In this document: piece by piece, positions 57,461 through 63,450 of the stretch | Layout: each line of letters opens with the position of its first letter | Position numbering within the stretch: position 1 is the first letter of the stretch | Source of the DNA: Nitrospira defluvii | GTDB taxonomy: Bacteria; Nitrospirota; Nitrospiria; Nitrospirales; Nitrospiraceae | Direction: 5' to 3' | Length of the DNA: 64,000 nt | NCBI GenBank assembly: GCA_000196815.1 | Contig: FP929003.1 | Coordinates: 1,240,001-1,304,000, forward strand | The notes under the pieces: model-generated | Database searches by the model: none | What the model saw: only the letters and a program-made list of their open reading frames with translations | Told to the model about the DNA's origin: nothing | Translations under genes and position numbers: made by a program

Positions 57461-58720
57461 ATGGCGACAAAACGAACGTTAGCCCAAATCGAGCAAGCCT
57501 TGCGTGAAAAGACCCGCGAGGTGGATGTGCTCCATCGTATCAGCGAGTCGATCAGCAATACCCTCGATTTGGAGGCAGTGCTCCGGCATATCGTGGATAT
57601 GGTCGTTGAAGTGACCAAAGCCGACGCCTGCTTGCTGTATTTGTTGTCGGATAACAGGGACGAGCTGATCCTGCGGGCCTCCAAGAATCCGCATCCGAAG
57701 CTGATCGGACGGATTACCATCGGGATGGGCGAGGGCATCACAGGGTGGGTGGCCCGGGAGCGGACGCGGGTCGTCATTCCCAACAGCGCCAGTGATGACA
57801 CACGGTTTAAGTTCTTTCACAATCTGCCGGAAGACCGGTACCAGGCATTTGTCTCCGTGCCGATTACGACGAAGCAGGAGGTCGTCGGCGTCATCAATGT
57901 GCAGCACAAGCGGTCGCGCCGATACCGGCCCGACGAACTGGCGCTGCTCTCGACCATTGCCACACAGGTCGGCGGAGCCATCGAAAACGCCCGTTTGTAC
58001 GATCAAATGACGCGGAAAGCCCTGCAACTCGACACGCTCTCCCAGGTTTCAGAAACCGTGTCGTCGAACCGACTGATCGAAGATGTGCTGCAATTGATTG
58101 TGACGATGACGGCCCAGATGATGGGGTCGAAGATTTGTTCCATCATCTTGTTGGACCAAACCACGGGTGAACTTCGCATCGCCGCCACACAAAGTCTGAG
58201 CGAGCAATACCGGCGCAAACCCAACGTGAAGATCGGCCAGAGCATCAGCGGGCGCGCCGTTCAGGATCGTCGGCCGATCATCGTGCCGGATGTCACCAAA
58301 GAAGGCACCTATATGTATCCGGACATGGCCGCGAAGGAAGGCCTTTGCTCACTTCTGTGTGTGCCGATGCTGGTGCGGGAGAAAGCCATCGGGGTCATTA
58401 ATACGTATACCTCAAAGCCGCATACCTTCACGGCTGAGGATGTGAAACTGATGCAGGCGATTGCCAATCAGGCCGCGATTTCCATTGAGCACACCACGTT
58501 GCTGGAGAAATCGTTTGAGATGCAGGAAGCGTTGCAGGTTCGCAAGTTGCTCGACCGGGCCAAGGGATATCTCATGCGGTCGAAACGGCTGTCGGAAGAA
58601 GACGCGTTCAAATTGATTCAACGCCAGAGCATGGATCTTCGCAAATCCATGCGAGAGATCGCAGAAGCCATTCTCCTGGCCGGAGAAATCGAAGAACGGG
58701 CGGATAAGGGCAGGAGTTGA
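57461..58720 (+). CDS. GAF-GAF-ANTAR regulator, putative RNA-binding antiterminator
   Basis: A 419-residue protein. GAF domain 1 spans about residues 21-180 (MGEGITGWVARERTRVVIPN, EVVGVINVQHK) and GAF domain 2 about residues 188-345 (IGQSISGRAVQDRRPIIVPD, EKAIGVINTYT). The C terminus at about 352-408 is an ANTAR domain (LLDRAKGYLMRSKRLSEEDA, FKLIQRQSMDLRKSMREIAE). ANTAR proteins bind paired RNA hairpins with six-base loops and prevent transcription termination. GAF domains bind small ligands or sense redox, but the ligand here is unknown. AGGAGTGGA fixes ATG 57461, directly after aroB. Matching RNA motifs lie at 60448-60553 and 62451-62493. Confidence 0.88.
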   Translation: MATKRTLAQIEQALREKTREVDVLHRISESISNTLDLEAVLRHIVDMVVEVTKADACLLYLLSDNRDELILRASKNPHPKLIGRITIGMGEGITGWVARERTRVVIPNSASDDTRFKFFHNLPEDRYQAFVSVPITTKQEVVGVINVQHKRSRRYRPDELALLSTIATQVGGAIENARLYDQMTRKALQLDTLSQVSETVSSNRLIEDVLQLIVTMTAQMMGSKICSIILLDQTTGELRIAATQSLSEQYRRKPNVKIGQSISGRAVQDRRPIIVPDVTKEGTYMYPDMAAKEGLCSLLCVPMLVREKAIGVINTYTSKPHTFTAEDVKLMQAIANQAAISIEHTTLLEKSFEMQEALQVRKLLDRAKGYLMRSKRLSEEDAFKLIQRQSMDLRKSMREIAEAILLAGEIEERADKGRS

Positions 58721-60403: not shown

Positions 60404-60433
60404 TTGACAGCCAGTTTAGGCCGGTGGTATACA
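60404..60433 (+). promoter_or_regulatory. Sigma70 promoter of the nadE leader
   Basis: A perfect TTGACA (60404-60409), an 18-base spacer and TATACA (60428-60433) with an extended TGG before the -10 box. The expected start near 60440 is 8 bases before the first hexaloop hairpin. Confidence 0.65.
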
Positions 60434-60447
60434 CACGGGATCATTTC

Positions 60448-60553
60448 CGGGGACAACGGCGTCTCCGACGAGCAATTCGTTCCGAACGATACATTGGAAC
60501 CAGGACAACGACGTCCTCCGATCCACTGAGGTGGGTCTGAGGACGTTTTTTTT
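60448..60553 (+). promoter_or_regulatory. Candidate ANTAR-responsive antitermination leader of nadE
   Basis: Hairpin P1: CGGGGAC (60448-60454), loop AACGGC, GTCTCCG (60461-60467); seven pairs, one of them G-T. Hairpin P2: AGGAC (60502-60506), loop AACGAC, GTCCT (60513-60517). Both loops have six bases with A at position 1 and G at position 4, the known recognition rule of ANTAR proteins. P2 shares 60511-60517 with the 5' arm of the terminator, so P2 and the terminator exclude each other. The 34-base linker can form a small TCGTT/AACGA hairpin. Inferred: a bound ANTAR protein stabilises P1-P2 and lets transcription reach nadE. Confidence 0.75.
60511..60553 (+). terminator. Intrinsic terminator in the nadE leader
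   Basis: ACGTCCTC (60511-60518) pairs with GAGGACGT (60539-60546). After one mismatch, GATCCAC (60520-60526) pairs with GTGGGTC (60531-60537) around TGAG. Eight T residues follow (60546-60553). It lies about 112 bases before nadE and after a plus-strand promoter, with no gene in between, so it is an attenuator rather than an operon end. Confidence 0.9.
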
Positions 60554-60665
60554 ATCAGCATGTTGATGACCCCTATCAGCACCGAGCGATCAGACGTCAG
60601 CTCAGGGTCCAGAAGGTCCGATGACTCGTGTTCAGGCTGAACGCTGAGGGTTACAGGCTGTAAAT

Positions 60666-62435
60666 ATGCGTCCGCTCCGAATTGCCATGGCCCAGATCAA
60701 TCCGACCGTCGGGGATATTGCCGGCAACACGCGCTTGATCCAAACGTGGATCAAGGAAGCGCGCAGGGCTAAGGCCGATCTCGTGGCCTTCCCGGAACTG
60801 GCTGTCACCGGCTATCCGCCGGAGGATTTGTTGTTCAAGCCTCGCTTTATCGAGGACACGCAGCGTGCCTTGAAGGCGGTCGCGGCCGAAGCACGCGGGT
60901 TAGTCGTGGTCGTCGGGTATGTCGGCCAGGGGGCGACGGCTGTTTCGGCCTCAGAGGCTCCTTCATTCCCGCTGGCCGGTCGGCATGAGTTGTACAACGA
61001 GGCCGCGGTGCTGTCTGATCGGCGGATTCTGGCCACCTACCGGAAACGGCATCTGCCGAACTACGGCGTGTTCGACGAGAGCCGGTACTTTCACCCAGGC
61101 TCTCGCCTGCCGCTGCTGGTCCTGAACGGCGCGACGATCGGGGTCAATATTTGCGAAGACATTTGGTTTTCGGACGGGCCCACGCGGCTGCAGGCCTCGG
61201 CCGGCGCCGAGGTCATCGTCAATATCAACGCATCTCCGTTCCATGTCGGGAAGGGCCGGATGCGCGAACAGGTGCTGGCGACCAGGGCCCGTGAAAATCG
61301 CGTGATCGTGACGTACACCAACACAGTCGGTGGGCAGGACGAACTGGTGTTCGACGGCTGCAGCATGATTGTGGACCAGGCGGGCGAGATCGTGGGGCGG
61401 GGGAAGGCGTTTGAGCAGGATCTCATCGTGGCGGATCTCGATGTCGCGGCCGTGGGGCGTGTGCGACTGGCCCAGGGCCGCAGGAAACCCCTGCCGCCGC
61501 GTGTGGCGGCCCTCATCGATCGGGTCGATGTGCGCCTGCCTGCGAGAAAGTCGCAGTCGGTCGTGGTACCGGATCTGGAGCCTCCGTTGGGTCGTCTCGA
61601 CGAGGCCTATCGCGCCTTGGTTCTCGGGGTGCAGGACTATGTCCGCAAGAACGGGTTCAAGCGCGTCGTCATCGGATTGAGCGGAGGGGTGGACTCGGCC
61701 ATCACTGCAGTCATCGCGGTAGACGCCTTGGGCGCGGAGAATGTGCTCGGGGTGTTCATGCCGTCGCCGTACACGTCCCGAGCCAGCCGGGAAGATGTCG
61801 CCGACATGGCCCGCCGGCTGCATATTCAGGTCGATACCCTGTCCATCACGGCGACGTTCAAGAGTTACCTGCGCGCCCTCGGCCGATCCTTCAAGGGCCG
61901 GCGCCCGGACACGACTGAAGAGAATTTGCAGGCACGGATCAGGGGCAATCTGCTGATGGCCTATTCGAACAAGTTCGGCCATCTGGTGCTGACCACCGGA
62001 AATAAAAGCGAGATGAGCGTCGGATACGCGACGCTGTACGGCGATATGGCCGGAGGGTTTGCGGTGATCAAGGATGTGCCGAAGACCATGGTGTATGAGT
62101 TGTCGCACATGCGCAACCTGGTCGGGCCGGTTCCGGTCATCCCGAAACGTGTGCTCGAGCGGGCTCCGACCGCGGAGTTACGGCCCGATCAAAAGGACGA
62201 AGACAGTTTGCCGCCCTATGCCATCCTCGATCCGATTCTCAAGGCCTACGTCGAGGAGGACCGTGCGTTGGAAGACATTACAGCGATGGGGTTCGATCGG
62301 GAGACGGTCGCGCGGGTGATCGCGTTGGTGGACCGGAGTGAGTACAAGCGGCGGCAGGCACCGCTGGGAATCAAGATTACGCATCGAGCGTTCGGGAAGG
62401 ATCGGCGGATGCCGATCACCAACGGGTATCGGTAG
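60666..62435 (+). CDS. nadE: Glutamine-dependent NAD+ synthetase
   Basis: A 589-residue, two-domain enzyme. The N-terminal nitrilase-like glutaminase domain (about residues 1-270) has the Glu-Lys-Cys triad in FPELAVTGYPPEDLLF, YRKRHLPNYGVFDE and IGVNICEDIWFSDG. The C-terminal synthetase (about 300-589) has the ATP-binding GLSGGVDSAI and TTGNKSEMSVGYATLYGDMA. It makes NAD+ from deamido-NAD with ammonia drawn from glutamine, so it is tied to nitrogen status. Its expression appears to be controlled by the attenuator upstream. CTGTAAAT directly before the ATG is a poor ribosome-binding site. Confidence 0.95.
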   Translation: MRPLRIAMAQINPTVGDIAGNTRLIQTWIKEARRAKADLVAFPELAVTGYPPEDLLFKPRFIEDTQRALKAVAAEARGLVVVVGYVGQGATAVSASEAPSFPLAGRHELYNEAAVLSDRRILATYRKRHLPNYGVFDESRYFHPGSRLPLLVLNGATIGVNICEDIWFSDGPTRLQASAGAEVIVNINASPFHVGKGRMREQVLATRARENRVIVTYTNTVGGQDELVFDGCSMIVDQAGEIVGRGKAFEQDLIVADLDVAAVGRVRLAQGRRKPLPPRVAALIDRVDVRLPARKSQSVVVPDLEPPLGRLDEAYRALVLGVQDYVRKNGFKRVVIGLSGGVDSAITAVIAVDALGAENVLGVFMPSPYTSRASREDVADMARRLHIQVDTLSITATFKSYLRALGRSFKGRRPDTTEENLQARIRGNLLMAYSNKFGHLVLTTGNKSEMSVGYATLYGDMAGGFAVIKDVPKTMVYELSHMRNLVGPVPVIPKRVLERAPTAELRPDQKDEDSLPPYAILDPILKAYVEEDRALEDITAMGFDRETVARVIALVDRSEYKRRQAPLGIKITHRAFGKDRRMPITNGYR

Positions 62436-62450
62436 TACGGGCCGCATCAG

Positions 62451-62493
62451 GACCGACAACGACGTCGGTCGGCAACACTGGCAATGGCGCCAG
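62451..62493 (+). promoter_or_regulatory. Second candidate ANTAR hexaloop pair, before the porin-like and amt genes
   Basis: Hairpin 1: GACCGAC (62451-62457), loop AACGAC, GTCGGTC (62464-62470), seven perfect pairs. Seven bases later hairpin 2: CTGGC (62478-62482), loop AATGGC, GCCAG (62489-62493). Both loops follow A-A-Y-G-R-C, the same consensus as in the nadE leader. It starts 16 bases after the nadE stop, so it probably acts on read-through from nadE or on a promoter inside the nadE 3' end. Confidence 0.65.
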
Positions 62494-62571: not shown

Positions 62572-63450
62572 ATGAATATGCTGGTTGGCCGAAAGGCACG
62601 GACATGGGTGTTGGGGTTGGCATTACTTGCCGGAGTCGGTGGTGGGGCGCTTGGCGAGGCGCAAGCCGGGGCAACAGATGACCTCATGGATACGACCAAA
62701 CACCCCGTGTCGGTCACCATGGCGATGCAAGCCGATAGTTTCTTCGGGTTCAATCCCTCCATCTACGGGACCTATGGATTGACCGACAACATCGCCCTGG
62801 CCTTCAACTTCACCTATTGGACCATGATCAACGGCGTGGGTGTGCACGACAACGCGCCCTGGCTAGAAACTGACATGGGCTTGAATTTTACCTTCCTGGA
62901 AAAGCGGCTATCGGTCACTCCTATGATCGGATTCGTGCACGGGCAATTGCTCTCTTCGCGCGGGGGCTTCTTTCCCAACGGCGGTGGGAGTGTGAACGAG
63001 CGAACGACGGCGTTTGAAGGCGTCGTGCCCAACATTATCGCGAATTATACGGATGATCGCTTCGAAGGCGAGTTCTATCTGGGCTACTACAAGGCTATCC
63101 GGAGTGAAGGGGGCAGCGGAGGCGGCGGTGCAACCGGGTGCAGCGGACTTGTCGACACGAATTGTTTGGGCACCAGTCAGACCGGTGGTCGAGGAACCTG
63201 GGACTTCTTGCATTATTGGGTGAGTGCCGGCATGCGTGTGAACAGCATGTGGTCCCTCGGTGCCCACTATGAGCATTTGCTGACGACGAGAGACAGCAGC
63301 GCCCCCGGGGCGGCTCAGGACTATTATCGCTGGATCGGACCGTACGTCGAAATGAAATTGCCGGGGAACATGGCCTTCCGGTTCACAGTGGGTAAAGACC
63401 TGACAGATAATCAGGATTTCTATAAGTTGAAGTTCACGAAGACGTTTTAG
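62572..63450 (+). CDS. Outer-membrane beta-barrel-like protein, unknown function
   Basis: A 292-residue protein with a signal peptide (VLGLALLAGVGGGALGEAQA, cleavage before GATDD). The mature part has alternating aromatic, beta-strand-like segments (NIALAFNFTYWTMINGVGV, YEHLL, PYVEMKLPGNMAFRFTVGKD) and ends in an aromatic residue (KFTKTF), as outer-membrane barrels do. A Gly-rich loop with two cysteines lies at about residues 183-205. TTGGAGG precedes the ATG. It sits between two putative regulatory RNA elements and 77 bases before the ammonium transporter gene, so a role in nitrogen-compound passage is possible but unproven. Confidence 0.7.
   Translation: MNMLVGRKARTWVLGLALLAGVGGGALGEAQAGATDDLMDTTKHPVSVTMAMQADSFFGFNPSIYGTYGLTDNIALAFNFTYWTMINGVGVHDNAPWLETDMGLNFTFLEKRLSVTPMIGFVHGQLLSSRGGFFPNGGGSVNERTTAFEGVVPNIIANYTDDRFEGEFYLGYYKAIRSEGGSGGGGATGCSGLVDTNCLGTSQTGGRGTWDFLHYWVSAGMRVNSMWSLGAHYEHLLTTRDSSAPGAAQDYYRWIGPYVEMKLPGNMAFRFTVGKDLTDNQDFYKLKFTKTF

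Follow-up and report, generated by a model that had tools for sequence, protein, structure and literature searches.

The segment upstream of nadE in Nitrospira defluvii raises the question of whether a promoter, two hairpins and an intrinsic terminator together form a regulatory leader and, if so, which protein operates it and which other genes fall under the same control. The window, that is, the whole stretch of 64,000 nucleotides under analysis, at positions 1,240,001 to 1,304,000 of the genome, was examined by computation for anatomy, conservation, covariation, co-occurrence with ANTAR genes and regulon content. On this basis, the segment is very probably a nadE transcription-attenuation leader operated by a GAF-GAF-ANTAR protein, with nadE placed within a nitrogen-acquisition regulon.

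An earlier note had described a sigma70 promoter, hairpin P1 (loop AACGGC), hairpin P2 (loop AACGAC), an eight-T terminator whose 5' arm overlaps the P2 3' arm, and nadE about 110 bases downstream, and direct reading of the sequence placed all of these as described (Table 1). The P2 3' arm (60513-60517) lies inside the terminator 5' arm (60510-60518), with five positions common to both, and the nadE ATG at 60666 stands 112 nt past the T-run. Transcription is predicted to start near 60440, ahead of P1. A strict sigma70 scan with its -10 rule did not pick up the leader promoter because the -10 hexamer, TATACA, has only four of six consensus matches, and the leader terminator was likewise not picked up by an automatic terminator scan. 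Sigma70-like promoters with 9-11 of 12 consensus matches lie ahead of P1 in all 28 leaders checked.

Table 1. Features of the nadE locus, with coordinates in the window.
Feature	Coordinates	Strand	Basis
GAF-GAF-ANTAR one-component regulator, 419 aa, predicted RNA-binding antiterminator for the nadE leader	57461..58720	+	Pfam GAF x2, ANTAR
Sigma70-type promoter, TTGACA 60404-60409, 18 nt, TATACA 60428-60433	60404..60433	+	Sequence
Hairpin P1, loop AACGGC 60455-60460	60448..60467	+	Folding; two-sided changes among relatives in 4/6 modelled pairs
Hairpin within the 34-nt P1-P2 linker (predicted)	60479..60500	+	Folding only; absent from some relatives
Hairpin P2, loop AACGAC 60507-60512; predicted antiterminator hairpin	60502..60517	+	Sequence, folding
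Intrinsic terminator with T8 60546-60553; 5' arm contains the P2 3' arm	60510..60553	+	-26.2 kcal/mol
nadE, glutamine-dependent NAD synthetase, 589 aa	60666..62435	+	Pfam CN_hydrolase + NAD_synthase
Second tandem hexaloop element, GACCGAC-AACGAC-GTCGGTC and CTGGC-AATGGC-GCCAG	62451..62493	+	Covariance model R1, 51.8 bits; training member
DUF6733 gene, signal-peptide-like start	62572..63450	+	Pfam DUF6733

The leader folds more stably than its shuffles (z=-3.14), in the predicted order P1, linker hairpin and P2, with the terminator ousting P2 once the RNA reaches about 60544. Predicted energies are -45.1 kcal/mol for the terminator state and -35.9 kcal/mol with P2 enforced; the terminator state is thus about 9 kcal/mol more stable, and termination is therefore the expected default.

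Within the window's genus, most Nitrospira have the tandem hairpins at matching places of their nadE loci, as do distant Nitrospirales. In the alignment of 22 elements on which covariance model R1 was trained, the covariation score is 0.435, compared with 0.168 +/- 0.022 for shuffled and at most 0.128 for slid alignments, and P1 carries two-sided changes in four of its six pairs. An R1 search of the fetched loci returned 97 matches, 87 of them distinct, with a covariation score of 0.367 against 0.134, the alignment being fitted to R1 and including several training members. The compensatory changes that the earlier note had suggested seeking upstream of nadE are thus strong in P1 and modest in P2, whose own covariation is thin because it is nearly invariant. 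An overlapping terminator, with its 5' arm beginning in the region of the P2 3' arm, accompanies 81 of 92 related elements, and the terminator stem positions past P2 vary while their pairing is kept. Loops and hairpins, whose conservation and covariation in relatives had been named beforehand as a point on which the reading could fail, are conserved and covarying.

Among the distinct elements, G occupies loop position 4 in 83/87 (P1) and 86/87 (P2), and position 1 is A in 74/87 and 75/87, respectively, and otherwise almost always G. The near-invariant G4 agrees with the crystal structure, in which it makes the sole base-specific contact (PMC8934654). Three elements upstream of nadE (L010, L012, L022) have P2 loops that start with G (GATGAC), off the A1 rule.

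An R1 match stands immediately upstream of 25 of the 26 nadE genes in the genus, G016 being the exception. Outside the genus, the nadE leader occurs in other genera (L199, L206, L208, L212), in family f2 (L195) and in family f12 of the class (L210), and it follows the ANTAR gene directly in distant Nitrospirales. At two loci (L011, L013) nadE adjoins an ANTAR gene yet has no leader.

A candidate regulator is encoded 2 kb upstream of the leader, in a gene that the earlier note had overlooked together with the second tandem hexaloop element. Its C-terminal ANTAR domain (PF03861) scores 67.5 bits against a cut-off of 27.3 in Pfam and is the sole ANTAR match in the single-contig genome of 4,317,083 bases; each of the 29 genus genomes, and each ANTAR-bearing genome of the class sample, likewise carries one ANTAR gene. 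The ANTAR-type antitermination reading of the leader put forward in the earlier note is accordingly supported, as the genome encodes a single regulator of the cognate type, close to the leader. When the protein is aligned with NasR (4akk), the residues R340, K345, K347 and the aromatic W362 named in PMC7496416 correspond to R, R, K and F, so that the aromatic is kept and R at the K345 position is a change that NasR tolerates, while R366 and N373 correspond to Q and R. Pfam reported no NIT nitrate/nitrite-sensing domain in the regulator and two GAF domains instead, and the AlphaFold model (mean pLDDT 79.7) comprises two GAF domains, long helices and a C-terminal helical bundle.

A scan of the N. 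defluvii genome (4.3 Mb) with R1 found four sites at E<0.01, with the next-best E not below 0.69. None of the four is more than about 11 kb from the ANTAR gene: they lie before nadE, before the DUF6733 gene and, as two in tandem that were outside the R1 training set, before nirC-cynS-nirA. The covariance-model search over Nitrospira genomes that had been proposed earlier gave matches in 29 of 29 genus genomes. In a class sample of 147, R1 matches occurred in 68 of 104 ANTAR-bearing but only 2 of 43 ANTAR-less genomes (Fisher p ~1e-12, ignoring the relatedness of the genomes), and, counting the family alone, 51 of its 53 ANTAR-bearing genomes had them. Among 29 further nadE-bearing genomes of other Nitrospirota, seven were ANTAR-less and none of these had the element at E<0.01; three of the seven are Nitrospira in which nadE is present with neither ANTAR gene nor leader. 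Two genomes are exceptions, having a leader-like element and no detected ANTAR protein: G124 (L193/L231), with no recognised gene within 7 kb downstream of the element, and G184 (L194), with three hexaloop hairpins in series. Two R1 matches without a T-run (L144, L160) were set aside as likely false.

The genes behind these elements extend the picture beyond nadE. The second element of the window begins 15 nt past the nadE stop, ahead of the DUF6733 gene, and is conserved in relatives; no terminator was recognised there, and a possible pairing of its P2 3' arm (GGCGCC) with GGCGTC at the ribosome site would hint at translational control. The DUF6733 gene is a probable second target of the regulator. 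Outside the window (L085 6518-6694, genome 1309517-1309693), two complete leaders follow one another, each having a terminator of its own, ahead of nirC (nitrite transporter), cynS (cyanate hydratase) and nirA, and DUF6733, amtB, glnB, glnD and glnA sit between nadE and this double leader. The proximity of N. defluvii nirA to glnA, amtB and glnK has been described in a published comparison of Nitrospira, in a passage that does not name a regulator (PMC5767232). In relatives, elements precede nadE, nirC-cynS, nirC-nirA, amtB and a gene for an NMT1_2 (nitrate-type ABC) binding protein, as well as genes for a NirB-like reductase, BBP2 porins, an SH3-like lipoprotein and DUF6733. Additionally, many genus members (L131, L132, L134, L139-L141, L147, L152, L155) encode, close to the ANTAR gene, a porin-like protein of about 455 aa with no Pfam match, whose gene follows an ANTAR leader of its own. 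The other predicted targets are thus uptake genes for ammonium, nitrate and nitrite, together with porins, and since the targets are largely nitrogen genes, nadE is assigned to an ANTAR nitrogen-assimilation regulon. It is a sensible member because it is of the glutamine-dependent type, which is known to be controlled by PII; PII-nadE islands have been reported in Nitrospirae (PMC7196632).

Several other explanations of the segment deserve consideration. The hairpins might have arisen by chance, with the terminator merely insulating nadE from upstream transcription, and the motif by itself indeed proves little, since tandem A1/G4 hairpins occur at about chance frequency: under a loose rule (A1, G4, stem of at least 5, G-U allowed), the + strand of the 64-kb window holds two tandem pairs, against about 2.2 expected from a simple estimate. 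The nadE leader, however, is far above chance through its conservation, its covariation, the genome-wide scan and the adjoining ANTAR gene; covariation contradicts a chance origin, the specificity of the scan and conservation also speak against it, and so does the promoter found immediately ahead of P1 in every one of the 28 leaders checked, which makes this explanation exceedingly improbable. A decoy function, in which the short terminated RNA mainly titrates the ANTAR protein in the manner of EutX/Rli55, with expression of nadE coming from elsewhere, would suit the G124 element with its lack of a recognised neighbouring gene and the ability of single hexaloops to bind ANTAR (PMC8934654). Yet nadE lies directly behind the element in 25 of 26 nadE-bearing genus genomes, and in distant Nitrospirales (L039, L042, L050, L057) its ATG comes straight after the terminator T-run, so that a decoy is very unlikely to be the main function.

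Another alternative retains the attenuator and assigns its reading to a non-ANTAR factor, such as a metabolite riboswitch, another RNA-binding protein or a leader peptide, that switches between P2 and terminator. A terminator switch alone would appear identical, and the element is kept in G124 and G184, both ANTAR-less. Rfam, however, gave no family match at the nadE leader, the conserved part consists of two G4 hexaloops, which are the ANTAR signature, the elements track the presence of ANTAR genes, and the same element stands ahead of unrelated nitrogen genes; an attenuator of this kind is accordingly improbable.

For the ANTAR-operated leader, we infer regulator binding, antitermination and the direction of control as follows. 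RNA polymerase would start near 60440 and make P1 and then P2; without active regulator, the terminator would oust P2 and transcription would halt at the T-run near 60553, whereas a regulator activated via its GAF domains would bind the hexaloops and keep P2 closed, thereby blocking the terminator and allowing nadE to be transcribed. The same regulator would serve the elements before nirC-cynS-nirA and the DUF6733 gene in N. defluvii and, in relatives, those before amtB, the nitrate-type ABC binding protein and porins. As for the signal, GAF1 is closest in sequence, among PDB entries, to 3e0y and to the PtsP GAF domains 3ci6 and 3trc, and then to NifA-like Nlh1, and Foldseek with the whole regulator gave generic tandem-GAF matches and a PtsP GAF domain, which is not decisive for the ligand. 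In other bacteria, the PtsP GAF domain binds glutamine (PMC4848567). Because GAF1 resembles this domain, internal nitrogen status, in the form of glutamine or 2-oxoglutarate, may be guessed as the signal.

The proposed system resembles NasR-nasF of Klebsiella (NIT-ANTAR) in its one-component ANTAR regulator, P1/P2 hexaloops, overlapping terminator and assimilatory nitrite/nitrate genes (PMC3369931, PMC7496416). It differs in that the sensor is GAF-GAF and not NIT, in that the targets include nadE, cyanase, porins and DUF6733, and in the linkage of the regulator gene to nadE. With EutV and eutP/G/S/A of Enterococcus faecalis it shares a dual hexaloop in which positions 1 and 4 are conserved, a P2 3' arm within the terminator and the service of several leaders by one regulator, whereas EutV is a phosphorylated REC-ANTAR protein and about one in seven loops here has G at position 1. 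The linkers also differ, as the short P1-P2 linker of the eut members (5-12 nt) is not found in the nadE leader, where it measures 34 nt, within a range of 7-38 nt across the element set. In the eut system, a linker of 14 nt, or 20 nt added, ruined function (PMC3369931, PMC8934654). A predicted hairpin inside a long linker may bring P1 and P2 closer, but among linkers of at least 26 nt only 16 of 36 (44%) fold with z below -1. The coupling of PII and NadE (PMC7196632) likewise ties a glutamine-dependent NAD synthetase to nitrogen status; PII, however, works by protein contact on the enzyme, while the control proposed here would act on nadE transcription via RNA.

Control of nitrogen genes by ANTAR proteins is well documented, and GAF-ANTAR proteins have been called uncharacterised (Ramesh 2012, PMC3369931). 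The earlier note knew of no report of NAD synthetase under such control, and searches of the open-access literature on ANTAR with NAD synthetase and with Nitrospira or Nitrospirae, the supplementary target tables of Ramesh 2012 aside, likewise yielded none; within that scope, the mechanism is already known, and what appears unreported is the target, the type of regulator and the regulon. Both in soils and in treatment plants, Nitrospira are of major importance as nitrite oxidisers, and no report was found on the control of their nitrogen assimilation. The locus supplies candidate RNA targets for a GAF-GAF-ANTAR protein and offers one regulator, one defined RNA target and a list of targets testable in vitro without genetics; if the reading is true, NAD synthetase would here be under nitrogen control at the transcript level, the first such case found in the search and parallel to the PII-NadE contact. 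A bolder proposal, tentative and rather doubtful, is that a class-wide one-component regulator with a PtsP-like GAF domain responding to glutamine/2-oxoglutarate sets NAD synthesis and nitrogen uptake jointly by antitermination at hexaloops held far apart by an intervening hairpin, which, if true, would constitute a direct RNA-level link from nitrogen to NAD in nitrifiers.

At six loci of relatives (L003-L006, L008, L015), the spacer between terminator and nadE is filled by a recurring palindromic intergenic sequence like GTACTGCGCGAGTACGCCTCAGATC, which is not in the window. At the four loci where the ATG directly follows the T-run, the ribosome site is probably provided by the terminator 3' arm GAGGAC itself, and control could act there on both transcription and translation.
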